Positions 37,448 through 55,739 of a stretch of DNA of 64,000 nucleotides are shown here, piece by piece. The notes under the pieces are model-generated. The model was given only the letters and a program-made list of their open reading frames with translations, made no database searches and was not told the origin of the DNA. The stretch comes from an uncultured Bacilli bacterium (GTDB lineage: Bacteria; Bacillota_I; Bacilli_A; RFN20; CAG-631). The stretch lies in contig CANQVX010000008.1 in the NCBI GenBank assembly GCA_947627355.1, forward strand, positions 17,312-81,311, read 5' to 3'. Position numbers and translations under genes: made by a program. Numbering within the stretch: position 1 is the first letter of the stretch; every line of letters begins with the position of its first letter.

Positions 37448-37481
37448 CTCCTTATAAAAAAAATAATTTTTTTTATGGTTT

Positions 37482-37504
37482 ATGCGCGCGCATTATGCTA
37501 TAAT
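37482..37504 (+). promoter_or_regulatory. Extended -10 promoter (TGCTATAAT) with upstream palindrome ATGCGCGCGCAT
   Basis: Perfect 12-bp palindrome 37482-37493, -10 tataat 37499-37504, ahead of the carbohydrate operon. Confidence 0.65.
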
Positions 37505-37572
37505 GGTTTTAGTTAATCGAATAATATTTATATTATTGTTCAAAATGCTTGTTTTTAAAAAGGAGGACTTTT

Positions 37573-38970
37573 ATGAAAAAGAAATTAGGCATCCTACTTT
37601 CTGCTTTTGTAATGATATTTGCAGTTGGATGCGATAAAAAAACAGCAGGCAGTAGTTCATCAAGCTCATCAAGCTCAATTGATACTACGCCACAAGAATG
37701 TGAATTTTGTAATAGTAAAGCAGAACCTATTACCTATCCAGAAGCTACTGCTTACACACCAACAACATTTAGTGAATCTTCTTATTCAGTAACTTTAGAT
37801 TCAACATTTGAAAATGTTGATGGTATTGATTTATATCGTGCTGAATATGAATTAACCAATGCTGCTTATGGTGAAGGACATATCACTGCTTATGTAACTG
37901 AAGTTGATCTATCTAAAATTACAATCGTTGCTGGTTCACCAAATAATTCAACAACTCAAACAACTACTGCAAAAATTGTTGACCAAGTTACTGCTTGGCA
38001 AAATGCAAATCGTAGAAAAGTTGTTTATGCAGCAACTAATGCAGATTTCTTTGGTAATAGTAAACCAGTCAACGCCTTTGTTAAAGATGGTGTTATTGTT
38101 AAATCAACTCATAATTATGATAGAAACGATTTACCTGTAAGTTCACCAATGCTATTTGGTGTCAGTGGAAATCAAGCTCAAATTGCTCCAATGACTAAAT
38201 CAACAGATAGATATACAAATGTTGACGCAAGTTTAACATATGGGGTTGAAATTTATAACTACGATTGCTCATCTTCAACAACTTATGATATTAATAAAGG
38301 TGGTTCTTTAGATGCTTCTAAATTTACTTGGATCTATAGTGCAGCTATGAAAGTTAAAAATCGTAATGTTGTTGAACTTACAGCTGATTCAAATGTTAAA
38401 AATGTTGTAAATGCAAGAGTTACAAATAAATTTTATGTTAGCGAAGAACAAACATTAACACCATCAGGAAATGTTTCTTATTTAGTTGTTCCTAACGATT
38501 TTGCTGATATTTCTTTAAATACTCAAATGACCGTTGGATTTGTTAAATCTCCTGATGGCCAATGGGATTATTATGATACAATTTTAGGTGGAAGACATTC
38601 TTTAGTTGAACAAGGTGTACTTGCTCCAACTGTTTCACAAGAATCATCAAATGGTGCTAAAAATAGAGTTCCTAGAACTGCAATTGGTATCAAAAATGAT
38701 GGAAAAGTTATGGTTGTTTCAATTGAAGATTTAGAATATGGTTCAAAAGCACCAAATAATACTGGCGTTAATTTAACTGAACTTGCTGATTTTATGCGTT
38801 ATTATGGTGCTTATAACGCAATGAATTTTGATGGAGGGGGCTCTACTCAATTACTTGTAAATGTTAATGGCGTTATGTCTGTTAAAGTTCGTTCTTCAGA
38901 TTATGGAACAGCTTATGTAAACACTAATAGCAGAAAAGTCATTAACACACTTCTAGTTGTTAGCAAATAA
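37573..38970 (+). CDS. Phosphodiester glycosidase (NAGPA-like) family lipoprotein
   Basis: lipobox AVGCDKK; NADFFGNSKPVNAFVKDGVIV, RTAIGIKNDGKVMVVSIE, AMNFDGGGSTQLLVN. Confidence 0.83.
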   Translation: MKKKLGILLSAFVMIFAVGCDKKTAGSSSSSSSSSIDTTPQECEFCNSKAEPITYPEATAYTPTTFSESSYSVTLDSTFENVDGIDLYRAEYELTNAAYGEGHITAYVTEVDLSKITIVAGSPNNSTTQTTTAKIVDQVTAWQNANRRKVVYAATNADFFGNSKPVNAFVKDGVIVKSTHNYDRNDLPVSSPMLFGVSGNQAQIAPMTKSTDRYTNVDASLTYGVEIYNYDCSSSTTYDINKGGSLDASKFTWIYSAAMKVKNRNVVELTADSNVKNVVNARVTNKFYVSEEQTLTPSGNVSYLVVPNDFADISLNTQMTVGFVKSPDGQWDYYDTILGGRHSLVEQGVLAPTVSQESSNGAKNRVPRTAIGIKNDGKVMVVSIEDLEYGSKAPNNTGVNLTELADFMRYYGAYNAMNFDGGGSTQLLVNVNGVMSVKVRSSDYGTAYVNTNSRKVINTLLVVSK

Positions 38971-38991
38971 CACTGAATGGAGAGCTCGAAA

Positions 38992-40770
38992 ATGAAAAAC
39001 AACAAAATTATTTTAGCATTGCCAATAATGTTAGCGATTACATCACTAACTGGTTGTGGAAGTAACAACACAAAAAAAGGCCCATCTTTAGCTGTTAATG
39101 GATGGGATCCAGTACTTGAATACAAAGGCGATATTGACTGTATGATGTATATCTATGGTCAAGCAGGAACCTATTTAGATATCGGAAACGATAAATGGAC
39201 TGCAACTGATATTATCGATGGTAGTGCAGCGTTATTCTTTGCTGCTGCTCGTGAATTTAAAAAGATTTATCCAGATATTAAAATTAATTTATATGCTAAT
39301 GATGGTCCAAATGGTAATCCATCTTACTTTGATAGTTACAATTCATATGTAAGTACTCATGGAAACCGTCCACCACACATTATGCACCACGTATCTTCAA
39401 TTCCAGCAGTTCTTGAATCTGGAATTATTGCTGATTATTCACAATACAAAGACGAATTCCCATTATATAAATATTTGAACAAAGAATTGCTTAAATATTC
39501 AAATTATGGTGGCTTCCAAGCAAGTGTTCCATTTGGCGTTTACCCTAAAGGAATCACTATAAATAGAAATTTATATGAAGGCGCTCCTTCATATGGTGAA
39601 ATGCCTGCTCCTGAAAAAGGTGAATGGACATTAGATGCTTTAGACGAAATAATTTCATCAAGACAAACATCTATTAATGGTGTAGCTGGTTTAGTTAACC
39701 TAGATATAGATATGCCTAACTTCATTATTCCTACAATTTATAAAAATTATATTGATGGAAGACCTGTTGAATTAAACACTCCAGAAGTTAGAAAAATGCT
39801 TGAACTTGAATATAAATGGAATACCAATAGTGTTTGGTTTAATCCAAATGATAGTGAAAAACTAGAAGGTCAAGAATGGCATAATTGGCAAAAAACAAAT
39901 TTAATGGTTCAAGATAGAGCCGTTGTTCAATTAGACCGTTCATTTAGTATGGGGGGGTTATCTCAACTTGCTGTAGCAGCTAGTACTGATGAACATTTTG
40001 ATATGTATCCATACCCAGGACTTACTGAAGATGATGATTTAACTCTTGGCGTTATGTTTGGTGCTTTACATTTAGGTAACCAATGTCCAGTTGATTCTAA
40101 TAAAAAAGAACAATGCACAGTTAAACAAAGACAAGCTCAAGAAGCAGCTGCTTATTTTGCAACATTTATGGTTGCCGATCCACGTTCTATTAAAGCAGCT
40201 AGTGAAATTAATTGGGCTAGAGCAGCTGATGCTGAAAACACTGAAACCGAAGGTACAACGGGTGCTTTAGTTGGTGCTACAAAGGGCTTTCCAGTTTTAA
40301 GTCGTTTAGATGAAAATGGCCAACCTTATACATTACCAGTAAGTAGTGAAGGTGTTACTGATGAATATCAAACACAACTTTCATATTTCTTTAAATGTTT
40401 CCCAACTTGGGATCCAGATGAATATGAAGACACAAATCCAAAACCTGGAATCAAGAAGATTCTAGAAATGTATGCTGATGATGATTATGTTGTATGTTCA
40501 AATAACTTCTATCCATGGCTTATTCCAAATCCAGGAACTGGTGGAACTACCGACATTTTTGGTGTATGGAATAATAGATTCTACACTGAAGCATTAGGTG
40601 ATATCAATATTGGTAGTACAACATGGGTAACTACTGTTGCAGGTTTATTAAATAACTGGCAACAAGATATCAATTCTAATACAAATATGGCATGGGAATA
40701 CATTGAAGAATGTATGAGATCATATTATAAATTACCTGCTAATTTTGATATTACTCAAAAAATCTTTTAA
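38992..40770 (+). CDS. ABC transporter extracellular solute-binding lipoprotein
   Basis: lipobox SLTGCGS; solute-binding organisation, linked to permeases. Confidence 0.75.
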   Translation: MKNNKIILALPIMLAITSLTGCGSNNTKKGPSLAVNGWDPVLEYKGDIDCMMYIYGQAGTYLDIGNDKWTATDIIDGSAALFFAAAREFKKIYPDIKINLYANDGPNGNPSYFDSYNSYVSTHGNRPPHIMHHVSSIPAVLESGIIADYSQYKDEFPLYKYLNKELLKYSNYGGFQASVPFGVYPKGITINRNLYEGAPSYGEMPAPEKGEWTLDALDEIISSRQTSINGVAGLVNLDIDMPNFIIPTIYKNYIDGRPVELNTPEVRKMLELEYKWNTNSVWFNPNDSEKLEGQEWHNWQKTNLMVQDRAVVQLDRSFSMGGLSQLAVAASTDEHFDMYPYPGLTEDDDLTLGVMFGALHLGNQCPVDSNKKEQCTVKQRQAQEAAAYFATFMVADPRSIKAASEINWARAADAENTETEGTTGALVGATKGFPVLSRLDENGQPYTLPVSSEGVTDEYQTQLSYFFKCFPTWDPDEYEDTNPKPGIKKILEMYADDDYVVCSNNFYPWLIPNPGTGGTTDIFGVWNNRFYTEALGDINIGSTTWVTTVAGLLNNWQQDINSNTNMAWEYIEECMRSYYKLPANFDITQKIF

Positions 40771-40783
40771 TTAATACAACATT

Positions 40784-40816
40784 ACGAGAATGGAGATAAT
40801 TTTTTTCCATTCTCGT
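40784..40816 (+). other. Intercistronic hairpin
   Basis: acgagaatgga / tccattctcgt, 11-bp perfect arms, 11-nt loop. Confidence 0.75.
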
Positions 40817-40840
40817 GTTTGTCGTTTTAGGAGGAATAAG

Positions 40841-43800
40841 ATGAAACATAAAAAAGCTAAACTGACGCTCTTTGGTTTAGGGGTGATGCTTGCCTTAACA
40901 TCATGTAGCAACACAGTTAAACCATTTGATGTAAGCGTCGAAGATTTTGACCAAAGTGCAAATTATTTATTAGATCGTACTGGTGGCGATGATGATTATA
41001 TTTACCGTTATAATTCCTTAATGGAAAAATATCGTGGTAGATATGTAAGTTCAAAAAATGAAAGAGTACTATATGCAACTAATGCTAGCCATCCTCAAGA
41101 AGATATTCAAGGTGAAGCTAAAGAAAACGTTGATATTTTGCTGTCTAGAAATTTAGGTGGAGAAATTCGTTATTCCATTATTACCGATAAAGATGGTAAT
41201 CAAATTTCTAGTTTGGATACTGGGCTTTATACAATTGAAGTAGAATATTATCTACCAATTGATTTCCTTTCAGCTGGCTTAATTAGCGTTTATATCGGCA
41301 ATTCTTTACAATTTTCATCTGCTTTATCTATGCAACTTCCATTATTATATGAAGATGATGTGGAATATAAAGAAAATGGAAGTAAAGATTTTGATGGCTA
41401 TGTTAATAAATATGGTGATCAATTAGCTCCTAAAACAAAACGATATGGTACTTGGGCATCAGTCATGCTGAATACTAATATCAACGACACATCCGAAGCA
41501 GCACTTTTTGAAATTAATTCTAGTACTAGTTTCATTACTATTAGAAGTAACTCAGAAAGTACAATTTATTTACGTAAAATTAAACTAGTTCCTTATCAAC
41601 CATTAATTTCTTATGATGAATATTATAATGATGTTAATAAAACATTAGGAACTGGTACTTATAAATTAAATGCAATTGATTATGCTTATAAAAATGATAA
41701 AGCTATTCGTTTATCAACTGAAATGACAGCAACAGTTGCGCCATTTAACAACTATAAAAAGTTAATTAATGTTTTAGATGGTTGGGATGTAGCTGGTCAA
41801 ACAGCAACATGGAAACTAACAGTTGATAAAGCAGGTCTTTATCCTATTACATTACATTATTATAATGGTACAAATGAAGGACCAGTTTTTAGAACCATTG
41901 AAATAAATGGTAAAGTTCCTTTTGAAGAATTTAAAAACTATCGGTTTGAAAATACCGGTGCTGGTTATGCTAATGAAACATTATCAAAAAATGGCAAACC
42001 ATTATATTATTTCTTTGATGCTAATAAAGAATATGAATTATCAATCACTTCTGAAAAAGAACCATTTAGTGATAGTTATTATAGTCTAATGTCTATTTAT
42101 GATGATATTAATGACTTTGCAATTGAAATTAGAAAAATCACTGGTGCTACAGTTGATACTAATCGTCAATGGCGACTAACTACTATCTTTCCAGAAACTG
42201 AAGATCTTTTGAAGCATTATAAGAATGTAATTTATTATGAATATAATAGATTATCTAATCTAGTTGATGATAGTTCAATGATTCTATCATATTTTCCTAG
42301 AATGACTCAATTATTAGATGATTTCATTAAATCACCTAATAGCATTCCTAATAAGTTGGATCGTTTCTCATCTGGGGATTCATGTCTTGCTAAATTGATT
42401 GCTGATACAGCAAATCTACTTACAGCAACTAACATGACACTAGATATGATTTATTTAACAAATGATGATTCAAAGATTGCTAGAGCAAATGCTTCTGGTT
42501 GGGAAAACTTTAAAAATAGTATTAGTTCTTTATTTGATACTTTCACTTCAGATCGTTATAAAACTGAAAATGATCCAGATCAATTAAACGTTTGGGTAAA
42601 TAGATCTTTAAACTATATCGAAATCATGCAAGCTATGGCTGATAATGATTTCACTCCTAAAACTGGAATTAAAGTAAACCTACGTCAAATGCCTGGTGAA
42701 CAAAACTTAATTCTTGCTAATGCTGCTAATCAAACTCCTGACTTAGCACTTGGCGTTACCGCCGGTCTTGCTTTTGAATTTGCATTACGTGGTGATGCTT
42801 CTTATCCATTAAGTGATTTTGATGACTTCTGGGAAGTAGCAAAAAATATTCCAGCCGGTCAATTCTTATCATCATTATATCAAGATAAAATATATGGTCT
42901 TCCTGAAACATCAACCGCTCAAGTCTTATATGCTCGTTCAGATATCCTTGAAGTTATTGGTGATAACAACACTGAATTACCAATGCCTGAAGTTTGGGAT
43001 GATTTAATTAATATTCTTCCACGTTTACAAAGCTCTGGTATGAACTTCTACTATCCAGCTAGTGTTAGTACTTCTTTAAAACCATTATCTGCTACAGTTC
43101 AACTTATTTTACAAAATGGTGGAAAATTATATGCTGACGATGGTTTTTCAGTAGATTTAAGAGCTGATGAAAGTATTCGTGGTTTACAAACCTTAACTGA
43201 CTTATATACAATTTATGCTTTGCCTGCTGAAGTTGCTAACTTCTTTAACTCCTTCAGATATGGTTCTATTCCATTAGGTGTTAGTGATATTAGCATGTAT
43301 ATTTCTTTAAAATATGTTGCTCCAGAATTAGCTGGTAAATGGAAGATTGCTTTACCACCTGGAGTTAGACAAAACTGTTCAATAGCTGATGGCACATGTA
43401 AAGACTTAAATGGTGATGGTACACCAGATGATATTTCTCGTTGGTATATTTCCAATGGTTCAACCTCAATGATCTTTAATAAATCAAAGAAGATTAATGA
43501 AGCTTGGGAATTTAACAAATGGTGGATGAGTACTGATGTTCAAATTGAATATGCTGATACTTTACAATCAATTTATGGTCCATCATTCGTTTGGTTTAGT
43601 GCTAATAAAGAAGCAGCTAAAGAACTATTAGTTGATCCTGAAGTTCGTGATATCATGCTAGAAGCTCAAAAATGGATTACCGACTTACAACAATTACCTG
43701 GTCAATATATGATTCAAAGAGGTTTATCTGATATTTGGAACACTGTAGTACTTGGTAAATCTAGTAGTGGTACAGCCGCTGTTAAAATGACAGTTGCTAA

Positions 43801-43963
43801 TGCCGTGGATTTAAATAAAGTTATTATTGACCGTGAAATTAAACGTAAGATGGAAGAATTTGGCTTCTATGATACAAAAACTAATAAACCTATTAAAGAA
43901 TATAAGGTTAGAGATTATGATTGGATACTATCATGTATTCAAAACAAAAAATGTCCAGTATAG
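40841..43963 (+). CDS. Large (1040 aa) lipoprotein: N-terminal carbohydrate-binding-like region fused to extracellular solute-binding domain
   Basis: lipobox ALTSCSN; beta-rich CBM-like segments (AGLYPITLHYYNGTNEGPVFRTIEINGK), then SBP-like GIKVNLRQMPGEQNLILANAANQTPDLALGV... Confidence 0.75.
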   Translation: MKHKKAKLTLFGLGVMLALTSCSNTVKPFDVSVEDFDQSANYLLDRTGGDDDYIYRYNSLMEKYRGRYVSSKNERVLYATNASHPQEDIQGEAKENVDILLSRNLGGEIRYSIITDKDGNQISSLDTGLYTIEVEYYLPIDFLSAGLISVYIGNSLQFSSALSMQLPLLYEDDVEYKENGSKDFDGYVNKYGDQLAPKTKRYGTWASVMLNTNINDTSEAALFEINSSTSFITIRSNSESTIYLRKIKLVPYQPLISYDEYYNDVNKTLGTGTYKLNAIDYAYKNDKAIRLSTEMTATVAPFNNYKKLINVLDGWDVAGQTATWKLTVDKAGLYPITLHYYNGTNEGPVFRTIEINGKVPFEEFKNYRFENTGAGYANETLSKNGKPLYYFFDANKEYELSITSEKEPFSDSYYSLMSIYDDINDFAIEIRKITGATVDTNRQWRLTTIFPETEDLLKHYKNVIYYEYNRLSNLVDDSSMILSYFPRMTQLLDDFIKSPNSIPNKLDRFSSGDSCLAKLIADTANLLTATNMTLDMIYLTNDDSKIARANASGWENFKNSISSLFDTFTSDRYKTENDPDQLNVWVNRSLNYIEIMQAMADNDFTPKTGIKVNLRQMPGEQNLILANAANQTPDLALGVTAGLAFEFALRGDASYPLSDFDDFWEVAKNIPAGQFLSSLYQDKIYGLPETSTAQVLYARSDILEVIGDNNTELPMPEVWDDLINILPRLQSSGMNFYYPASVSTSLKPLSATVQLILQNGGKLYADDGFSVDLRADESIRGLQTLTDLYTIYALPAEVANFFNSFRYGSIPLGVSDISMYISLKYVAPELAGKWKIALPPGVRQNCSIADGTCKDLNGDGTPDDISRWYISNGSTSMIFNKSKKINEAWEFNKWWMSTDVQIEYADTLQSIYGPSFVWFSANKEAAKELLVDPEVRDIMLEAQKWITDLQQLPGQYMIQRGLSDIWNTVVLGKSSSGTAAVKMTVANAVDLNKVIIDREIKRKMEEFGFYDTKTNKPIKEYKVRDYDWILSCIQNKKCPV

Positions 43964-43979
43964 GAGGTGAATCATTGAT

Positions 43980-44981
43980 ATGAGTAATTCAAATGTAGAT
44001 GCGGCTTATAATTCAAGAGTTAGACGTAATATTCATGGCTATACTCTTAAAAAAGCCGAAAAAACTAAAAGAAAAAGTAGACATAAAAATACTGGTATTA
44101 ATGGTTCAGCTTGGGGTATCTTTTGTTTGGTATTTCCATTTGCCCTATTATTCTTTGTCTTTATCGTTGTTCCAGTATTTATGTCAGCATTATTAAGTCT
44201 TACTTACTATAATGCTATTGATACTCCTAGATTTGTAGGAATTCAAAACTACATTGATATGTTTACAAGAGACCGTGAATTTATGATGTATGTTATTCCA
44301 CAAACCTTAAAATTTGCAATTATTGTAGGTCCAGGTGGTTATATTCTATCGTTTATTATTGCTTGGATGTTAGCTCAACTTCCTCGTGGTATTAGAACCG
44401 TACTTGCTTTAATTGTTTATACACCATCTCTTGCTGGTGGTGTCTTCATCGGTGTCATTTGGAAATCATTTTTCTCCGGTGACCAATTCGGTTATTTGAA
44501 TGCTATTTTGATGAATCTAGGTATCATTAAAGCACCAATTGCTTGGCTTACCAATCCACAATATTTGTTAAGCATTACAATATTTGTTGCATTGTGGTCT
44601 TCATTTGGTATCGGATTTTTATCAATCCTTGCATCACTTTGTAATTTGGACCAAGAATTATTTGAAGCCGCACATATTGATGGCATTAAGAATCGTTTCC
44701 AAGAAACAATTTATGTAACGATTCCTCAAATGAAAGGATCAATGTTCTTTAGTGCGATTATGTCAATTACTGGAGCTATGAGTGCTGGTACATTAGCCGT
44801 TGACTTATCAGGATCTAACCCAACTCCACAAAACTCAGCTCAAACAATTCTAGCCCACATGAACGACTATGCATTTATTAGAAATGAACTTGGTTATGCA
44901 TCCGCAATGTCAGTTGTCTTATTGTTATTTGTACTTGTCTTTTCAAAGATTGCATCCAAGTTATTTGCTGAAAAGGATTAA
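43980..44981 (+). CDS. Carbohydrate ABC transporter permease (MalF/UgpA type)
   Basis: multiple TM; EAA motif LFEAAHIDGIKNRFQETIYVTIP. Confidence 0.9.
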   Translation: MSNSNVDAAYNSRVRRNIHGYTLKKAEKTKRKSRHKNTGINGSAWGIFCLVFPFALLFFVFIVVPVFMSALLSLTYYNAIDTPRFVGIQNYIDMFTRDREFMMYVIPQTLKFAIIVGPGGYILSFIIAWMLAQLPRGIRTVLALIVYTPSLAGGVFIGVIWKSFFSGDQFGYLNAILMNLGIIKAPIAWLTNPQYLLSITIFVALWSSFGIGFLSILASLCNLDQELFEAAHIDGIKNRFQETIYVTIPQMKGSMFFSAIMSITGAMSAGTLAVDLSGSNPTPQNSAQTILAHMNDYAFIRNELGYASAMSVVLLLFVLVFSKIASKLFAEKD

Positions 44982-44998
44982 AGGAGGGATAGAAAGAT

Positions 44999-45871
44999 AT
45001 GGCAAAATTTCAAGTCACTCAGCTAAATCCTAAAAGATTTCAAGCGAGTCAAATCAAATTCTTAGTTATTCTCCTTTTAATTTGTACAGTTATGATTCTT
45101 CCAATTATTTATATTGTTAACCAAGCATTTAAACCATTGGATGAATTATTCTACTTCCCACCTCAACTATTTGTTAAAAATCCAACGATTTCTAACTTTA
45201 CTGAGTTAGGAAGACTTGCAAGAACTACTGGACTTCCTTGGATTAGATATTTATTAAACTCACTAATCATCTCAGTAGTTTATGTTATTGGCGTTATATT
45301 TATTACTGTTTTAGCAGCTTATGCAATTTCTAAAAAAGAATTCCGTTTCAAAAAGGTATTGTTTAAAGTTAACCAATTAGCCTTAATGTTTGTTGCTGTA
45401 GCTGTTGCAGTTCCTAATTATTTAATTATTTCTTATTTAGGTTTAATGGATACTTTCTGGGTACACATTATTCCTTCACTAGCAGTTCCTGTTTATCTAT
45501 TCTTATTAAAACAAAACATGGACGATGGAATTCCTAAAGAAATTCTAGAATCTGCTAAATTAGATGGCGCTAATGATTTACAAGTCATCTTAAAATTCGT
45601 TGTTCCTCTAGTTAAGCCAGCAATCGCCACTATTGCTATCTTAGCTTTCCAAAGCATTTGGAATTCAGGAGGCGCAAGTTTAATTTATCTAACAAGTGAA
45701 AGCTTAAAGACATTACCTTATTATTTAGGTTTGCTTCAAGCTTCAGCCGGAATTAAGGCTACTGGAGTTGCTGCAGCATCATCTCTAATAATCTTCGTTC
45801 CTAATCTAATTATCTTTATTGCAATGCAATCAAGAGTTATGAATACTATGGCAAGGTCAGGTATCAAATAA
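44999..45871 (+). CDS. Carbohydrate ABC transporter permease (MalG/UgpE type)
   Basis: EAA motif ILESAKLDGANDLQVILKFVVPLVKPAI. Confidence 0.9.
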   Translation: MAKFQVTQLNPKRFQASQIKFLVILLLICTVMILPIIYIVNQAFKPLDELFYFPPQLFVKNPTISNFTELGRLARTTGLPWIRYLLNSLIISVVYVIGVIFITVLAAYAISKKEFRFKKVLFKVNQLALMFVAVAVAVPNYLIISYLGLMDTFWVHIIPSLAVPVYLFLLKQNMDDGIPKEILESAKLDGANDLQVILKFVVPLVKPAIATIAILAFQSIWNSGGASLIYLTSESLKTLPYYLGLLQASAGIKATGVAAASSLIIFVPNLIIFIAMQSRVMNTMARSGIK

Positions 45872-48171
45872 TGAAATACATTAAAAAATTCTTTGCTTTA
45901 GTTAGCATTGCCTTAATTATTGCTGCAAGTGGCTTATTTGGTAGTTATTATGAAAATAATAGTAACAACATTAATCCTGGTCATGTAACTCAAGTTAAAG
46001 CTGCAACCGCTACAACTTATACGCAAACATACAATGCGGATAACATTCTAGTTAATGCCCCTGATGCTTATGAACCAGGTTCAACCTATGACACAATAGG
46101 TTTAGAAACTCCTCAAGAAATGTTTATTCATGAAGAAGAAGCTGGAGATATTGTTTATATTCTAAACACTCCTTCAGGAGGAGCAAGTCCATTCTTAATT
46201 AAGATGAATTTATCAGCAGAAAATCCTGCATCCACTGTTGAAAAAATCACTTTACCATTTGCTTATATGAATACACCAACAGGTCTATGGATTGTAAACA
46301 TTAATGGTACTGATTGGATTTATATTAGTGATGCTAAAGCATCATTTACTATCTATAGTGGTGATACAACTCGTCAATTTACATTCACTGGTTTAATTTA
46401 CATGGCTGAGTTAAATAATCTAAGTCATTATAAGATTATTACTGAACCAGCTATTGAAAAAGCCGGTGGTATTACTGAAAGATCTCCATCATTTGGTAGT
46501 AAAGACTTAACAAACTTTGAACCTTCTAAGATTTCAGTTGATAATGAAGGTAAAATCTATGTTGCAAGTCCTTCTACTGGTGCTGGTTTAATCCTATTAT
46601 CAAATGCTTATTTAGATGTTGATAAATGGGGACCTAACAGTTATATTTCTAGTGAATTTATTAGTTTCTTTGCTGTTAATGCTGTTCAATATAACTTACT
46701 ATACTACCTAGTTAAAACCTTTGGTACTGAAAAACAATTAAAACAAATTGATATTCCTGAACCAGTAGGCTTTACCAATGTCTTCATTGATAATAAGAAC
46801 TTAACTTATTCAATGACCACTAAACCTAACAATGCTGATACTAGTAGTTATCCTAGCTTTACAAAGCATAAAACCGATGGTTCATCGATGTTTGCTTATA
46901 ATGTTATTGGTAGTAACAGTATATCTGCTGAATTTTCAGATATTACAGTATCAAAAGATGGCATCTTATTTGTAGCCGATCAAAATGGTTTGATTTATGT
47001 TTATGGTCCTGATGGTGATTTCATTTATCTGTTTGGTAGTTCAGAAAAAACTAAACCTGATATTGTTGGTTTCTTTGAAATGTTAAGAGCTATTGGTGTT
47101 GATTCTCAAGATCGTATTTGGGCAATTGACCAATCTAAGAACTTAATTCAATCATTCAATCCAACTGATTATACTAAAAACATTTTCGAAGCTATTATTT
47201 CTTTTGAAAATCATGAATATGAAAAATCAAGAAAAGCTTGGGAAAATGTCTTGGTAGCTGATGAATTATCAGTCTTTGCAAATGATGGTATCGGAAAAGC
47301 TTATTATTACGATTTACAATTTGATGAAGCTGCTAAATATTTCTCAATTTCTAAAAATAGAAGTTTATATTCTGAAGCTTTCTGGGAAATTAGAAATAAC
47401 TGGCTTCAATCAAATCTTGCCATTGCTGTTGTTATCTTAGTTGCAATTGTTGCAGTTCTTGTTGGTCTACATTATCTATTCAAATGTGTTCCAGTTCTTG
47501 CTAACTTCAAAGGTAAGGCAAAGACTACTGTGACACGAAGCAGAATCTTTAAAGATTTAACAGTAGGATTTAGATTGATAAGAAAACCTGTTGATACCTT
47601 CTATGAATTAAAGACAGGTCAAAGAGGTTCAGTATTAGGTGCTACATTATACTATATTTTAGGTTTAATTATCTTTACCTGGTACATGTATGGTAAAGCT
47701 TTACCATTCCAATACTTCAATGAAAACACGATGTATGCATCGATTGTAATCTTTGGATTTATTGGTGTAATTGCTATCTTTATTATTTGTAACTATTTAG
47801 TTTCAGCAATTAAAAATGGGGAAGGAACCTTTAAAAACATTTACAAGTTTACAGGCTATAGTTTATTACCTTTGATTGTTTTACTTCCAATTGCTGTTGG
47901 TTTATCTTATATCTTAACTTTAACAGAACAAGTTATTATGGATTTATTATTCCAAGTAGCTTTGTGGGGAACAATCTTCTTTGTAATAGTAGGTATTTTA
48001 GAAACTCACAACTATACCTTTAAACAAACATTCTGGAACGTTATTTTAACCATTATCTTTATGGTATTATTCGTTATTATCTGTTTAACAATCTTATTAA
48101 TGTTTGACCAAGTATCAACATTAATTGAAAGTATTACTCGGGAGGTGAAACTTCGTGCTGGCTGGTATTAA
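45871..48171 (+). CDS. Yip1-family membrane protein with extracellular NHL/beta-propeller-like and TPR-like N-terminal region
   Basis: signal peptide; ISVDNEGKIYVASP, ITVSKDGILFVADQNGLIYVYGPDGD; five C-terminal TM helices. Confidence 0.7.
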   Translation: MKYIKKFFALVSIALIIAASGLFGSYYENNSNNINPGHVTQVKAATATTYTQTYNADNILVNAPDAYEPGSTYDTIGLETPQEMFIHEEEAGDIVYILNTPSGGASPFLIKMNLSAENPASTVEKITLPFAYMNTPTGLWIVNINGTDWIYISDAKASFTIYSGDTTRQFTFTGLIYMAELNNLSHYKIITEPAIEKAGGITERSPSFGSKDLTNFEPSKISVDNEGKIYVASPSTGAGLILLSNAYLDVDKWGPNSYISSEFISFFAVNAVQYNLLYYLVKTFGTEKQLKQIDIPEPVGFTNVFIDNKNLTYSMTTKPNNADTSSYPSFTKHKTDGSSMFAYNVIGSNSISAEFSDITVSKDGILFVADQNGLIYVYGPDGDFIYLFGSSEKTKPDIVGFFEMLRAIGVDSQDRIWAIDQSKNLIQSFNPTDYTKNIFEAIISFENHEYEKSRKAWENVLVADELSVFANDGIGKAYYYDLQFDEAAKYFSISKNRSLYSEAFWEIRNNWLQSNLAIAVVILVAIVAVLVGLHYLFKCVPVLANFKGKAKTTVTRSRIFKDLTVGFRLIRKPVDTFYELKTGQRGSVLGATLYYILGLIIFTWYMYGKALPFQYFNENTMYASIVIFGFIGVIAIFIICNYLVSAIKNGEGTFKNIYKFTGYSLLPLIVLLPIAVGLSYILTLTEQVIMDLLFQVALWGTIFFVIVGILETHNYTFKQTFWNVILTIIFMVLFVIICLTILLMFDQVSTLIESITREVKLRAGWY

Positions 48172-50722
48172 AAAATATGGCAAATTGCTATTAATGAGTT
48201 TTCTAGTTTTCGCTGGTTTTAGTATCGCAACTAATCAACAACACGTTTATGCTGTTGATGATACTAATCGTAATGAACAATTTGCAGCAGCTGAATACAA
48301 TGTGCCAATTAGTGGAGTTTCAACTGCTGATGGTTATGTAAAGATTTATGAAAATAAGAATTTTGAATATTTCTTTAGTGCTGGTAGTAATAATGGGAAC
48401 AAAAATAAGAATATTTTGAAAATTAGAAACAAACAAACCGGTTTTGTTTGGTCTACTGGCGCAGGAAATTCAAGAAAAGATGAAATGCTTAGTCGTTGTA
48501 CTCATATTAGAGCAAATACTCCTGAATACTTTGCTTGTACAATTGATGCTGGACCTAATAAAAATGGTGGCGATAATGAGGCCGCTTATGCTGAAATCAA
48601 TCAATTATTAGGATTTTCTTACATCAATAAAGGTCAACCTACACCAAATGTTGGCTTAAAAGCCTTAACTGCTGAATTTGTCCGTCATGAAAAATATGCT
48701 AACAGATGGATGTTTAAGACCTCATTCCAAGTAAGTATTGATAAGAAAACAAGAAGTTTCAACTTTAATATGCGTTTCACATTTGATGAAAAAGGATTTA
48801 ATGTTGATATCTTAGAAGAAGACATTTATGGTTCTGGTAGTTATTTAGTTGATGCTGTTTATCCTCTTCCATGTTTTGGTCAATCTGGTGGCAATATGTT
48901 AACTTGTAGCCTTGAAAATGTGGATGAAGATGGTTATGGTGATTGTGCCTTTTATCCTGAAAGTATCACTAAAAACCCAGCTACTGATTTACCAGGTTAT
49001 GTCTTTATTCCAGATGGCTCTGGAGCCTTAATTCGTTATGATACGAATCGTGAAATGAACAACAATGAGTTATATTTTGATGTTTATGGTGATCCATATC
49101 GTGAAAAATATACTGATGTTGAATATTCAACTGGTGATCAAATCATGGAACATTCTTATGTTGATAGTAAGAAAATCATGATGCCAGTTTGGGGTGTATC
49201 GTATGGTAATAATCAAGATGCCTTTGTTGCTTATGCAACACATGGTAGTGAATATTTTGGCTTAGTCTTTAGAGGACGTAGCGATAATTCATCTAAATTT
49301 GCTTATTCTCAAACTAAACCTCGTTTTGAAAGAAACCGTACTTATAAATATAATTTCGGTGCTGCTGCTAGAACTATTCTATATCTAGAAGAAGATGAAA
49401 TTTATAAATATGATATCGGTTTAAGATATGATATTTTAAGTGGTGATGGTTCTTTAGATAGCCTTCCTGCAAATTATATCGGTATGGCTTTATCTTATCG
49501 TAATTATTTAGTTAACAATGGTTTAATTAAAAAACTAACTGAAGATGAATTACATTCTGGTGTTAAAGTTGACTTTATCATGAGCGATGTTAAAAGAGCT
49601 ATTGTTGGTTATGAAGATGTAATCGCTACTCATACTAATCGTTTACAAGAAATATTAAATGAATTTAAAGATATGGGTATTGATTATGTAACATCCTCAT
49701 TACTAGGATGGCAAAATGATGGTATTGCCATGGCACATCCTGGAAAAAATAATTATAGTACTGGTGCTGGTTCTAAAAGCGGATTTAGAGACGTTGTAAA
49801 TACTGCTAAGAAACTAGACTATGATATTAATTTCCAACAAAACTATGGCTTAATCAATAGTGACCAAATGCCAAACATTGGTGCTTATGCTGTTAAAGGT
49901 TTAAATAGAAACTATGGAACAATGATTCTATGGGATAATAACAAACCTGTTAAATGGTGGCACTATGCTAACCCTAACATGCAAATGACTTGGTTAAATA
50001 ATCAAACTAATACATTATTAGATGATTTTGGTAAGACTATTGGTGTTACTATTGAAGGAACTTCAAACATCTTAGCTCCTGATTATGGAAAGAACTTAAG
50101 TTATGAAGATTCCATGAAAATCATTGCTAATGGTACTTATAAGGCTAGTAGTAAAGCAAGACTTGGTGCTGTTTCACCTAACATGTATTTATGGCCTAGT
50201 TTAACTGATTATTATGATATTCCTGTTTATAATTCTCAATATATTGCCGAAACTGATTCAGTTCCATTCCTTGAAATCGTTTTAGGCGGTCTTGTTAATT
50301 TATATGCAAGTTATTCTAACTTCTCATTCTATAATGATGAATCATGCTTAAAGATGATTGAATACAATCTAAATCCATCATTTATCATTACAGAACAATC
50401 AAATGAAGATTTAATGTATACTAATTCAAGAGATTATTATTCTACTGGTTATGGAAAATATAAAGAAATCATCAAAGAAGTTTATGAAAAAGTTAATCCT
50501 ATCTTAACTGCTTTGAAAGGTAAAACTTTAGTAGGTCGTGAAGTTATTCCTACCGGTGATGATAATGACAATTTAGGTTTCTATGTTAATACTTATGCTC
50601 CATTTGTTGATGGTGCTATCCAAAATGATAGTAAAGTAGTTGTAGCAATCAATTATCAAAATTATGAAGTCACTTATGAGGGACATGTTGTTAAACCTAT
50701 GAGTGCTATGATAATTAGTTAG
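48155..50722 (+). CDS. DUF5696-like secreted protein (possible glycan-active enzyme)
   Basis: GTG start; signal peptide; PGYVFIPDGSGALIRYD...; linkage with Yip1 and sugar permeases. Confidence 0.7.
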   Translation: MLAGIKKYGKLLLMSFLVFAGFSIATNQQHVYAVDDTNRNEQFAAAEYNVPISGVSTADGYVKIYENKNFEYFFSAGSNNGNKNKNILKIRNKQTGFVWSTGAGNSRKDEMLSRCTHIRANTPEYFACTIDAGPNKNGGDNEAAYAEINQLLGFSYINKGQPTPNVGLKALTAEFVRHEKYANRWMFKTSFQVSIDKKTRSFNFNMRFTFDEKGFNVDILEEDIYGSGSYLVDAVYPLPCFGQSGGNMLTCSLENVDEDGYGDCAFYPESITKNPATDLPGYVFIPDGSGALIRYDTNREMNNNELYFDVYGDPYREKYTDVEYSTGDQIMEHSYVDSKKIMMPVWGVSYGNNQDAFVAYATHGSEYFGLVFRGRSDNSSKFAYSQTKPRFERNRTYKYNFGAAARTILYLEEDEIYKYDIGLRYDILSGDGSLDSLPANYIGMALSYRNYLVNNGLIKKLTEDELHSGVKVDFIMSDVKRAIVGYEDVIATHTNRLQEILNEFKDMGIDYVTSSLLGWQNDGIAMAHPGKNNYSTGAGSKSGFRDVVNTAKKLDYDINFQQNYGLINSDQMPNIGAYAVKGLNRNYGTMILWDNNKPVKWWHYANPNMQMTWLNNQTNTLLDDFGKTIGVTIEGTSNILAPDYGKNLSYEDSMKIIANGTYKASSKARLGAVSPNMYLWPSLTDYYDIPVYNSQYIAETDSVPFLEIVLGGLVNLYASYSNFSFYNDESCLKMIEYNLNPSFIITEQSNEDLMYTNSRDYYSTGYGKYKEIIKEVYEKVNPILTALKGKTLVGREVIPTGDDNDNLGFYVNTYAPFVDGAIQNDSKVVVAINYQNYEVTYEGHVVKPMSAMIIS

Positions 50723-50736
50723 GAGTGTGAGTAAGT

Positions 50737-53490
50737 ATGGAATTTAAAGATTTAAGTATCGCTGCTGAAAGCACACTAAAATTTGCAAAAGAAGATGCTG
50801 ATAGAGAATTTGAAAAGATTCGTCAAAAATATGTTAAACATAGAAATGCTAATGCTGTTCATTTAACAACTTCAATTGAAGAATATGAAACAGCTTTAAT
50901 CGAATTAAGATTACAAATTCTAAAAGACAATTTAAATGCTTATTATGATGTTAATCCAAAATTATATGATTATGTTCGTTTGTTAAATGCTAAAAAAGAA
51001 TTAGAATTTAGACATGAACATAATAAGATTCATCGTCACGATGTTAGTCGTGAAGCAGTTATGAAAGAAATTGCTACACGTCGTTATGATTTTGAAAAAA
51101 TCGAAGTTGGTCTAGAAAAAACTTTATATGAAAAAGAAAAATATGACCGTTATGAAAAACTAGATTATGAACATCGTGTTGAACTTGATAAAGTAGTAGA
51201 AGAAATTGTTACTGCTAATAATGCCACTAATCCAATTAAGGTAACTTATGAAGAATTCTATAAACAAATGATTCAAGAATTTGAAGAAATTTGTAACAAG
51301 AATAAAGAATTAATGGCTGATTTATTCAATCAAGTAAATGTCATTGTTAAAGAAAACTATCAAAAACTAGCAATGACTGATAAGAAAACTAAAATCAATC
51401 AAATCTCATTAGAAAGAGATCAAAAAGCTAGGGATTTACTTGCTTTGCATCGTAAACTTCTTGATACTAAGGTTGATTTAAAAGTTTTAAAAACTCAACT
51501 TCGTGAAAAGTTACCAGTTGAAGAAACTTATAAAGAAGTTGAAGCAAACATCAAAGCCCTTGAAGATGAAATTAAGGTAGCTGAAGAAGCCATTGAAGCA
51601 AAGAATCAAGAAATCAAACAAGTTGAAGAAGAAATCGCAAAACTTCTAGAAACTTATAAAAAAGAATTCCTTGAACAAGCAAAAGTTAGTGAAAATAATG
51701 AATCTGTCGATAAAAACGACATTATTAGAATGATTAATGCTTGCTTTGCTAAAGAAAGTGATGAAGTATTTGATTCATTAATTCAAGTAATTAATGACTA
51801 TGGTAAAAAAGAATTCAAGCCATTTGATGAATATAAAAAAGAAAAATTGGCTGAATATGCATCCATAGTTGATAAAGAATCGATAAATAATTATTTAAAA
51901 TCTTTACAAGATCCTTCAGTAGACTTAAATGCTAAAAAAGAAGAAATCAAAAAAGAATATGCTGAAAAGTTGCAAGCCGAAAAAGAAAATTATTTATCGG
52001 TCAAAAGGGCAATTAAAGAAGCTCGTAACGAACGTAAACAAGTATATAAAGATAAGAAAAAAGAAGCTAAAATTAAATCTAAAAATGTTTCTAGTTCCTT
52101 TGAAAAGATGGAAATTAGAGATACCTTACTTGTTTATAAAAAAGAAATTAAAGAAGGCGACCGTGCTAAGTATAAAAAAGCAAGACACAATTATAGTTTA
52201 AAAGTTAAAGAAATAAACGAAGAATTAAGACTTGCTTTACTTGCAGTTGATCAACCTCAAACAGTTGTTGTTGAAGAAGTTTATCAAAGCAAACTTCAAA
52301 GATTACAAAAAGAAGATGCTAAATTTGAAAAACATCAAGAAAAACAACTTAAAAAGCAATTAAACTTATCTAAATATCGTAAGAATATGAATAAAACTCA
52401 AAGAGAAAATATTTTGGGTTATATATTCTTATCGGTATGGGCTGTAGGATTTGTTATTTTAACATTATATCCATTAATTTATACTTTCTTTTTAAGTTTT
52501 AGTGATGTTGGTTATCACTTAGGATATGATCCAGTTTTCTTTGGAAATGGTAAATTATTCCCTAACTGGGTGGGTTTTGAAAACTATTCAAATCTATTCT
52601 TTAACAACACTAGTTTCTTATATCAAAAATTACCAACATTTTTGATGAGTATGGCGTTTTTCCTACCAATTGTTGTATTCATTGCTTTCGTACTAGCAAT
52701 GCTACTTAATACAAAAATTGTCGGTAAAACCGTATTCAGAATCATTTATTTCTTACCAGTTATCATTATTTCTGGTGAATTACTTAACATGTTACAAAAC
52801 GATGGAGGCGGAAACGATTCCATTAGGTTAACAATTGATGGTACATTTATTTATTCAGTATTGAATTCAATATCTACCAAAGCTGTTGAATATGCAAACT
52901 TCGTATTCCAAAACTTCATTATTATTTTGTGGATGACTGGGGTACCAATTGTCTTATTCATTAGTGGTTTACAAAAAATTGATCGTTCATTATATGAGGC
53001 CGCTGAAATCGATGGTGCAAATAAATGGCAAGCCTTATGGACGGTAACGTTCCCATTGATTAAATCAGTTATCTTAATTGCTTGTCTATTTACAATCGTT
53101 CAAATTGCTTCAATCGATATGACTGGAATTAACCCTATCAAGAGTAGTGGTGATGCGGCTAATCCAGGAATTACCGAACTGATGTCAGGAACAACCGCAA
53201 AATATGGTATGGCTGCTGCTATGGCATGGGTTCAAACATTAATAGTTCTAGTATTTGTTGTTGTAGTATTCCTTCTTTTCAGAGAAAAAGAATTTGTTGA
53301 AAAACAAAAGAGTTACGAAGAAGTTGAAAGAATTAAGGCTAAGAAAGCTAGACGTAAAGCTAAAGCTTCAGCTTTCTTCCGTGTAGATGCTATTAAACGT
53401 GGTTGGGCAAAAGTTACAAGTCCAATTGTTAAATGGCGTCATACACGTCGTATGAAACTTCAAAAGAAGAAAGAAGAAGGGGGAGAATAG
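50737..53490 (+). CDS. Carbohydrate ABC permease (MalF type) with approximately 550-aa charged coiled-coil N-terminal extension
   Basis: First approximately 555 residues are K/E-rich helical; then NILGYIFLSVWAVGFVILTLYPLIYTFFLSFSDVGY and EAA motif LYEAAEIDGANKWQALWTVTFPLI. Confidence 0.88.
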   Translation: MEFKDLSIAAESTLKFAKEDADREFEKIRQKYVKHRNANAVHLTTSIEEYETALIELRLQILKDNLNAYYDVNPKLYDYVRLLNAKKELEFRHEHNKIHRHDVSREAVMKEIATRRYDFEKIEVGLEKTLYEKEKYDRYEKLDYEHRVELDKVVEEIVTANNATNPIKVTYEEFYKQMIQEFEEICNKNKELMADLFNQVNVIVKENYQKLAMTDKKTKINQISLERDQKARDLLALHRKLLDTKVDLKVLKTQLREKLPVEETYKEVEANIKALEDEIKVAEEAIEAKNQEIKQVEEEIAKLLETYKKEFLEQAKVSENNESVDKNDIIRMINACFAKESDEVFDSLIQVINDYGKKEFKPFDEYKKEKLAEYASIVDKESINNYLKSLQDPSVDLNAKKEEIKKEYAEKLQAEKENYLSVKRAIKEARNERKQVYKDKKKEAKIKSKNVSSSFEKMEIRDTLLVYKKEIKEGDRAKYKKARHNYSLKVKEINEELRLALLAVDQPQTVVVEEVYQSKLQRLQKEDAKFEKHQEKQLKKQLNLSKYRKNMNKTQRENILGYIFLSVWAVGFVILTLYPLIYTFFLSFSDVGYHLGYDPVFFGNGKLFPNWVGFENYSNLFFNNTSFLYQKLPTFLMSMAFFLPIVVFIAFVLAMLLNTKIVGKTVFRIIYFLPVIIISGELLNMLQNDGGGNDSIRLTIDGTFIYSVLNSISTKAVEYANFVFQNFIIILWMTGVPIVLFISGLQKIDRSLYEAAEIDGANKWQALWTVTFPLIKSVILIACLFTIVQIASIDMTGINPIKSSGDAANPGITELMSGTTAKYGMAAAMAWVQTLIVLVFVVVVFLLFREKEFVEKQKSYEEVERIKAKKARRKAKASAFFRVDAIKRGWAKVTSPIVKWRHTRRMKLQKKKEEGGE

Positions 53491-53496
53491 AATTTT

Positions 53497-54612
53497 ATGG
53501 AAAAACTTAGTCAATCTATAAAAAATATATTTTATAAAATAAAAGCCTTCTTCACATCTACTGCCTTTTTGAAAAAGTACGATAAAGCTCGTAAAATCTT
53601 AAAGAAGGTTATTCCAGCAATTATAGTTTATGCTTTATTAATTTGTTTCAGTTATGTCTTTATGTATCCTATTTTAAAGATTATTGTTGACTCATTAAAG
53701 AGTGAAACAGACTTGATGAACCCAGATGTTGTATGGTTACCTAAACATCTAACTTTATCAAATTATACTAATGCTGCAAAGGTTTTAAGAATCTTTAAAC
53801 CAATTTATCAATTCCCAGGAGCAAAAGAAGGTTTATATGCTATTCAATCAACTTTATGGAATAGTGCTTTATATTCCTTTATCGTAGCTGTTTGTCAAAC
53901 AGTTGTTGCAGGTCTTGCCGGTTATGCTTTTGCTCGTTTCAATTTCCGTTTTAAGAAATTCTGGTTTGCTGGTTTAATTATTTCATTCGTTGTACCAGTT
54001 CAAGTATTAGTATTACCAAGAAAGATTATGATGAATCCAATCATTAATTTCTTTGGAACTCCTGCTAAAATGTTAGGTCTTACTGGTTCTAGTATCGAAT
54101 CAGCAATCAATGCTAACCTTAACATTTTACAAACAACACCTATGATTTTGGTATCAATTCTAGGTCAAGGCTTAAATTCAGCAATTTTAGTCTTTATCTT
54201 CTTTAGTTTCTTTAAGATGATACCTCAAGCTCTAGATGAAGCTGCTCAAATCGATGGTGCTAACTATCGTCAAATCTTCTATCATGTCATTATTAAAATG
54301 AGTATTCCAACAATCTTAGTAGTATTCCTATTCTCGTTTGTTTGGAACTGGAATGATACATTTGTAATTGGTCAAATGACCTTGTTAAATGGTAATATTA
54401 GTGAAGCTTATAGATCACTTCCAAGAGCTCTAAATCAATTTAACTATAACATTTCTCAAGGGGCTAGCACATCTGGTGTTGATGAAAATAACAACAGAGG
54501 TTGGCGTGCAGCTGCCATTGTTATTTCAATTCTACCTTTGATTATCTTATATGGATTTACTCAACGTAAGTTTGTTGAAGGTATTGAAAACACAGGTGTT
54601 ACTGGTATTTAA
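53497..54612 (+). CDS. Carbohydrate ABC transporter permease (MalG type)
   Basis: EAA motif LDEAAQIDGANYRQIFYHVIIKMSIP. Confidence 0.9.
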   Translation: MEKLSQSIKNIFYKIKAFFTSTAFLKKYDKARKILKKVIPAIIVYALLICFSYVFMYPILKIIVDSLKSETDLMNPDVVWLPKHLTLSNYTNAAKVLRIFKPIYQFPGAKEGLYAIQSTLWNSALYSFIVAVCQTVVAGLAGYAFARFNFRFKKFWFAGLIISFVVPVQVLVLPRKIMMNPIINFFGTPAKMLGLTGSSIESAINANLNILQTTPMILVSILGQGLNSAILVFIFFSFFKMIPQALDEAAQIDGANYRQIFYHVIIKMSIPTILVVFLFSFVWNWNDTFVIGQMTLLNGNISEAYRSLPRALNQFNYNISQGASTSGVDENNNRGWRAAAIVISILPLIILYGFTQRKFVEGIENTGVTGI

Positions 54613-54625
54613 ACAAAGCCATTTT

Positions 54626-54655
54626 AAAAGGAAATGTCGTGAGGCATTTCCTTTT
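54626..54655. terminator. Bidirectional terminator at the end of the carbohydrate operon
   Basis: aaaaggaaatg / catttcctttt perfect 11-bp arms. Confidence 0.85.
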
Positions 54656-54661
54656 GTTATA

Positions 54662-55660
54662 CTATTTTTTATATTTTTCAATGAGATTATTACTTGTTTC
54701 AACCACTCTATCAATTAAACTTTGTGGTGATATTATTTTAATATGTTCATTGTATTGCATCACCCAATAATACAAGGCATTTTCATTACAATTAACAATG
54801 GCATAGATCTTTTCGTTTTCTTCAAAGATAATGGCATTTTTACCAAACCAATCTTTAACATATTGGATAGTGTTATTGTTATTTAATTCAATTTTAGCAC
54901 TGATTGTTTCACCAGAATAAATATAGATGTGTTCATTTAGATATTTAGTGATTGAAAAGTTCTTTTCAACAGTTTCAAGTTCACTTAATTCCTTTCTAGG
55001 TTCATCATCAAGTACTTGTAAATCCTTAATAAAATCAATTCTGAATGTTTGTAAATCTTGATATTTACTACGATAGTTGCAAAGCAAATAATATTTACCA
55101 AAATTATTGATCAAATAATAAGGGCTTACATGATAGACATAATCATTCATTCTAGTAACTTTGTTACCTTTGCTATCATAAGTCATATATTTAAAAGCAA
55201 TTTTCTTTTTGTTTTCGATAGCTTCAGTGATTTTACTAATTGAATAGAAGATTTGTTCATTATCAGTTTTGCTACTAAGTTCAGAACATTTGTATAAGTA
55301 ATCAAAAGATTTTCTTTGATATTTTGATAGACAAGAACTGATTTTCTCGGAAATTTCTTTGGTTTTTCTTGCTGATATCGATTTAGATGAAAACAAAGCA
55401 TCAATTAGATAAGTGACTTCAGTGCTATCAAATAAACGTTCACCTAGAAATACCCCTTCATTTGGAACTTTTACAATATCATAATCCATTTCGATTAAAA
55501 AATTAATGCCCGAACTAATTGTTCGACGATCAAATAAAAGACCATAGTCTTTATAAACCAATTGAATGATATCTTGTTGAGTTAAACAATGTTTTTCATC
55601 TGAATATTTTTCGAGCACTTTCAAAATAAAAATTAATAAACCTTTTTTACTATGTTCCAT
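54662..55660 (-). CDS. WYL-domain transcriptional regulator (HTH_11 plus WYL)
   Basis: N-terminal HTH; ITEAIENKKKIAFKYMTYD...VSPYYLINNFGKYYLLCNYRSKYQDLQTFRIDFI; start at MEHSKK. Confidence 0.85.
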   Translation of the reverse strand: MEHSKKGLLIFILKVLEKYSDEKHCLTQQDIIQLVYKDYGLLFDRRTISSGINFLIEMDYDIVKVPNEGVFLGERLFDSTEVTYLIDALFSSKSISARKTKEISEKISSCLSKYQRKSFDYLYKCSELSSKTDNEQIFYSISKITEAIENKKKIAFKYMTYDSKGNKVTRMNDYVYHVSPYYLINNFGKYYLLCNYRSKYQDLQTFRIDFIKDLQVLDDEPRKELSELETVEKNFSITKYLNEHIYIYSGETISAKIELNNNNTIQYVKDWFGKNAIIFEENEKIYAIVNCNENALYYWVMQYNEHIKIISPQSLIDRVVETSNNLIEKYKK

Positions 55661-55739
55661 AAAGTCACCGTTCCTTATAGATATTGTAACATTTTCAATG
55701 TACAAAAAAAAGAACATTGTAAAAAATGTCGAATAAAAA

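Follow-up and report, generated by a model that had tools for sequence, protein, structure and literature searches.

A conserved seven-gene cassette in an uncultured Bacilli bacterium and its relatives encodes a candidate dual ABC importer for β-linked oligosaccharides

Nine co-directional genes and their products

Nine genes, all on the plus strand, occupy positions 37573-54612 of the window, the whole 64,000-nucleotide stretch of DNA analysed here (genome G000), in the order NAGPA, SBP1, SBP2, F1, G1, Yip1, DUF5696, F2, G2 (Table 1). The nine co-directional genes proposed in the first-pass annotation were all found as open reading frames, and its product guesses were confirmed by Pfam for NAGPA, for SBP_bac_1 in the 1057-aa protein, for BPD_transp_1 in three permeases, and for Yip1 and DUF5696; the remaining permease, F1, was identified by NCBIfam UgpA/GlcT matches. 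For NAGPA and SBP2, the listed starts most likely lie too far upstream, judging from the sequence, and the ATG codons at 37573 and 40841, each preceded by an AGGAGG-type site, were preferred.

Table 1. Genes and regulatory features of the operon and its borders
Feature	Position	Strand	Evidence and remarks
Putative extended -10 promoter element, TGCTATAAT	37495..37510 (approximate span)	+	Read from the sequence of the dus-NAGPA gap
NAGPA (phosphodiester glycosidase, DUF2233), secreted lipoprotein	37573..38970	+	PF09992, 4.6e-26; lipobox AVGC; lineage-specific accessory
SBP1, solute-binding lipoprotein	38977..40770	+	Profile match to solved SBPs; relatives in this slot are SBP_bac_1/SBP_bac_8
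Strong hairpin, then T-rich tract, in the SBP1-SBP2 gap	40784..40817	+	14 pairs
SBP2, giant solute-binding lipoprotein, core gene 1	40841..43963	+	SBP_bac_1; Lin1841 match; CBM35 local match
Permease F1 (MalF/UgpA type), core gene 2	43980..44981	+	NF007852/NF040931; EAA loop; monophyletic group
Permease G1 (MalG/UgpE type), core gene 3	44999..45871	+	PF00528; NF008210; EAA loop
NHL β-propeller + TPR + Yip1 membrane protein, core gene 4	45871..48171	+	PF04893; NHL and TPR profile matches
DUF5696 protein, core gene 5	48155..50722	+	PF18952, 3.8e-105; Foldseek to GH129
Permease F2 with N-terminal extension of ~540 aa, core gene 6	50737..53490	+	PF00528 at 629-848
Permease G2 (MalG type), core gene 7	53497..54612	+	PF00528, 8.5e-16; EAA loop
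Intrinsic terminator common to the operon and the convergent WYL gene	54626..54660	+	14-bp hairpin AAAAGGAAATGTC/GGCATTTCCTTTT, T tract
WYL-domain regulator, convergent	54662..55717	-	PF13280

The proposal that the genes run from one promoter to one terminator holds at both ends, where a promoter element and a terminal hairpin were found, but the strong hairpin in the SBP1-SBP2 gap makes it too simple. No good -35 was found for the TGCTATAAT element, which is not among the consensus-scan matches listed. The position of the internal hairpin is kept in most of the relatives folded, with a different sequence, and as read from the sequence it is likely an attenuator or a partial terminator. Such a conserved position would be expected of partial attenuation giving SBP1 a higher dosage. 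The convergent WYL-domain protein is a possible regulator of the operon; its gene is missing from the corresponding place in G001, the nearest relative.

The NAGPA protein scores 92 bits against PF09992 (cut-off 25), and its PDB matches include 3ohg and human NAGPA. SBP1 (597 aa) has no Pfam match, and a profile of its relatives matches the solved SBPs 22hh and Lmo0181; it is absent from G002 and G003, two genomes of the window's family. SBP2 contains SBP_bac_1 (2e-15 in Pfam), and the best PDB profile match of this domain is Lin1841, a β-1,2-gluco-oligosaccharide SBP. In its N-terminal region a CBM35-like module is suggested by a local match (rmsd 1.9) on a weak model with a mean pLDDT of 54. 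Both SBPs carry a lipobox and match SBPs in the PDB. In core gene 4, NHL and TPR regions recognized by profile matches precede the Yip1 domain (5e-13, Pfam); no bacterial Yip1 protein tied to sugar import was found in the literature searched, of which coverage was partial.

The DUF5696 protein matches PF18952 with 353 bits, above the family cut-off, over positions 10-611 of the 612-position model, and no PDB entry was matched by sequence. Its predicted fold, a β-sandwich plus TIM barrel like that of GH129/GH101 glycosidases, gave a Foldseek match to GH129 at 1.8e-20 with a mean pLDDT of only 56. In contrast to those glycosidases, to which it is ~10% identical, it is a membrane-anchored transporter partner, and no acid pair is invariant across 49 DUF5696 members; position E736 is D or E in all 49, and position D478 in 41. 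Because the modelled fold is glycosidase-like and an invariant acid pair is lacking, DUF5696 may bind glycan instead of cutting it. No GH129 Pfam match occurs in 245 genomes of the phylum. DUF5696 was not mentioned in the literature searched, which was covered in part, so that an earlier description elsewhere is possible.

Two permease pairs within a conserved seven-gene core

The presence of two MalF/MalG-type pairs together with two SBPs, as first proposed, was borne out by domain matches, by the EAA loop kept in all four window permeases, and by phylogeny. In a tree of 198 permeases, F1, G1, F2, and G2 were each monophyletic (support 0.97-1.0), and four outside permeases that had been included fell elsewhere than these clades. 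The doubling is therefore old and fixed. At two loci (L099 and L105) F2 and G2 form a single fused ORF, which supports them as a pair.

Permease F2 carries an extension (50737-52350) of ~540 residues that is K/E-rich, nearly free of proline and glycine, and coiled-coil-like, with a weak 3.5-residue periodicity. It is limited to the window's family, where its identity to relatives is 69% and 21-22%, and absent from all other cassettes. A frameshift or misassembly as the source of the 917-aa F2 was ruled out, since three related genomes share the extension with the window.

Loci with DUF5696 were gathered from relatives, from named genome contigs, and from 392 genomes of the phylum. In the co-conservation check, which had been set in advance as a refutation test, the order SBP2-F1-G1-NHL/TPR/Yip1-DUF5696-F2-G2 was unchanged in 49/49 loci surveyed, some of which are near duplicates (L034 and L042 are apparently one locus), so that the effective number is slightly lower. 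Because the loci had been picked by DUF5696, the reverse test was run as a search for the Yip1 protein in the same 392 genomes. Of these genomes, 49 (about one in eight) carry DUF5696 and 48 carry the Yip1 protein, every one of the 48 being among the 49 and Yip1 never occurring alone; the lone discordant genome, G097, has only a truncated DUF5696. The cassette is widespread and not a local oddity.

Several variations on the cassette were observed. On the window's side of the tree a single ORF encodes the Yip1 protein, which on the opposite side is often split between two. A stop interrupts one of the DUF5696 copies in genome G009 (L033:9761-12001), which has a second, intact cassette. A deep branch (L091, L092, L104, L106, L107, L109) has far larger DUF5696 proteins of 1015-1317 aa and NAGPA-like or GH3 neighbours. 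No DUF5696 relatives were found among viral contigs.

The doubled pairs could also represent two independent importers for different sugars that have only the promoter in common, with the Yip1 and DUF5696 proteins as bystanders. Both pairs are complete, each SBP could serve one of them, and the hairpin that follows SBP1 points to separate control of dosage. We regard this as improbable, given that the pairs always stand together with Yip1 and DUF5696 between them at the 49 loci, and that these two proteins co-occur almost perfectly across the 392 genomes. The original suggestion of a candidate new glycan-uptake system is supported, as an uncharacterised one, and the co-conservation check left it unrefuted.

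Linked enzymes and the likely substrate

Neighbour gene clusters were named through Pfam, NCBIfam, and PDB searches. In one cassette clade the neighbours point to peptidoglycan sugars: NamZ, a NagZ-type GH3, a kinase of BadF/NagK type, and MurQ (383 bits; equivalog cut-off 302). At L075-L083 and L085 the cassette is followed by DUF624, NamZ, NagZ, the kinase, and MurQ without signal peptides, and there it is a candidate importer of peptidoglycan saccharides. A β-1,2-glucan clade is accompanied by GH144, which matches endo-β-1,2-glucanase structures, and SOGP, and β-1,3-glucan clades by GH16, GH161, and GH3, with LacI also present; a 1059-aa neighbour without a Pfam match proved to be a GH161 phosphorylase (E 1e-241). 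Enzyme labels on the DUF5696 tree require 8 changes, compared with at least 17 in 1000 shuffles, a comparison that ignores relatedness and shows clustering, not independent events. By a crude hydropathy test, signal peptides are present on most GH144 and GH16 proteins and on none of GH161, SOGP, NamZ, MurQ, and the kinase. Endo-enzymes being secreted and the latter proteins lacking a signal, oligosaccharides must cross the membrane inward.

The GH161/GH16/GH3 clade is the sister group of the window's family in the DUF5696 tree (support 1.0), and the peptidoglycan clade is distant. The nine-gene operon itself contains neither GH161 nor GH16; both are encoded elsewhere in G000, where GH3 was not found, and no GH16 was found in the cassette-bearing G002 and G003. 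The G000 GH161 is 37% identical to those beside sister cassettes and matches 9qqk with E 2e-208. A locus at G000:C1:136000-152000 (L159, L160) holds three GH16 genes encoding laminarinase-like lipoproteins, GH161, a UgpC-type ATPase, and a separate SBP and permease pair.

An external MsmX-like ATPase had been predicted, and indeed no ATPase gene lies inside the operon, while UgpC/MsmX-type ATPases are encoded at two other loci of G000, at C2:93861 (497 bits against a cut-off of 432) and C1:149368. One of these presumably serves the cassette. A further candidate for the shared ATPase, L001, was rejected as PotA-like on sequence reading and a lower UgpC score.

On these grounds we favour, with moderate confidence, the reading that the operon encodes a dual ABC importer for β-linked oligosaccharides and relies on a shared external ATPase. 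In the window bacterium β-1,3-gluco-oligosaccharides are the likeliest substrate, because the GH161 clade is the sister of its family and the genome has GH161 and GH16. The system has the features of the CUT1 type, namely four EAA-loop MalF/MalG permeases, lipoprotein SBPs, and a UgpC/MsmX-type ATPase in the genome; family membership points to import as the direction, and the linked enzymes point to an oligosaccharide substrate. Secreted endo-enzymes would free β-linked oligosaccharides, which surface proteins would capture and pass to one or both permease pairs, powered by the ATPase encoded elsewhere, and cytoplasmic exo-enzymes or phosphorylases would complete the degradation. In the window bacterium, GH16 lipoproteins would cut β-1,3-glucan, and GH161 would phosphorolyse the imported oligosaccharides. 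The two permease pairs, the two SBPs, the propeller/TPR/Yip1 protein, and the DUF5696 protein would cooperate at the cell surface, possibly as a physical complex, with putative roles for Yip1 and DUF5696. As a counterpoint, β-1,3-glucan products may instead enter through the ordinary SBP and permease pair of the G000:C1 locus. The lack of GH3 in G000 and of GH16 and SBP1 in G002 and G003 also speaks against this reading, as does the fact that NAGPA is all the operon itself carries. More tentatively, all seven proteins could belong to a single, obligate heteromeric importer that would be the Gram-positive counterpart to SUS-type glycan uptake, in which a propeller/TPR/Yip1 scaffold and a glycan feeder of glycoside hydrolase fold join two coupled ABC channels and which evolution has retuned for β-1,3-glucan, β-1,2-glucan, or peptidoglycan strands.

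Wall or phosphodiester glycans are the main rival substrate. According to this alternative, the operon imports a glycan that is phosphodiester-linked or of wall type, for example fragments of teichoic acid or peptidoglycan, and NAGPA opens sugar-1-phosphate linkages at the surface. All four genomes of the window's family (G000 and G001-G003) have NAGPA as the first gene of the operon, NAGPA-like neighbours occur at several loci on the peptidoglycan side of the DUF5696 tree, one whole cassette clade is linked to NamZ/NagZ/MurQ, and the operon holds no β-glucanase. We nevertheless judge it unlikely, because the DUF5696 tree places the window's family beside the GH161/GH16 clade, as its sister, and at a distance from the peptidoglycan clade, and because NAGPA, which heads the operon in this family only and is found near some other cassettes in a few lineages, lies outside the seven-gene core. 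NAGPA is an addition specific to certain lineages, and as evidence for a phosphodiester substrate it is weak. Of the two substrates first suggested for the operon, the phosphodiester-linked one is disfavoured, since NAGPA is not core and the nearest clade of cassettes goes with β-1,3-glucan enzymes, whereas the cell-wall-type glycan finds support for another clade, that with NamZ/NagZ/MurQ and the kinase, from which the window's family is distant.

If importer parts had been put to use in surface sensing or envelope maintenance, and not in nutrient import, this would accommodate the combination of NHL, TPR, and Yip1, which is unusual in an importer, as well as the DUF5696 protein without an invariant acid pair and the long coiled-coil-like F2 extension in the window's family. 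That reading is very improbable: the cassettes are steadily linked to catabolic enzymes and LacI regulators, the EAA loops are conserved, and each of the 15 carrier genomes checked has UgpC-type ATPases.

Significance and relation to known systems

The cassette looks like a so far undescribed general machine for the uptake of tough β-linked glycans. Under the importer reading, DUF5696 and the bacterial NHL/TPR/Yip1 protein, both of unknown role, become linked to glycan import, and a single gene tree would allow substrates to be predicted for entire clades of uncultured bacteria of the gut. Two ABC channels long kept together raise the question of how long or rigid β-glycans are imported.

Clusters of GH161 β-1,3-glucan phosphorylases have been described whose ABC transporters mostly lack ATPase subunits (Kuhaudomlarp et al. 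2019, PMC6484121). Like the cassette loci, they combine GH161 with GH16/GH3; in the available parts of that report the transporter genes are ordinary ones, and neither a seven-gene Yip1/DUF5696 cassette nor its use for other substrates is described. The mixed-linkage β-glucan locus of Blautia producta (PMC10318527) likewise encodes a surface GH16, an SBP, an ABC importer, and a cytoplasmic phosphorylase, but differs in that its one importer is of the conventional kind and comes with an ATP-binding gene, and in having no Yip1/DUF5696 as listed.

The β-1,2-glucan importer of Listeria innocua (CUT1, with the SBP Lin1841) resembles the cassette in having an SBP and MalF/MalG-type permeases without a local ATPase, and CUT1/MsmX importers and the cassette have a β-gluco-oligosaccharide context in common. 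Unlike these importers, the cassette has two obligate permease pairs, an SBP of ~1000 aa that bears extra modules, and, in its core, Yip1 and DUF5696.

In the NamZ/NagZ/MurQ muropeptide rescue of Bacillus subtilis, a PTS takes up MurNAc, and the glycosidases are secreted enzymes. The peptidoglycan clade of the cassette shares NamZ, NagZ, and MurQ with this operon, but its NamZ and NagZ lack signal peptides, which implies that longer saccharides enter via the cassette. For Bacillota, this clade would offer a candidate ABC importer for oligosaccharides that contain MurNAc; NamZ, NagZ, and MurQ would then act in the cytoplasm.
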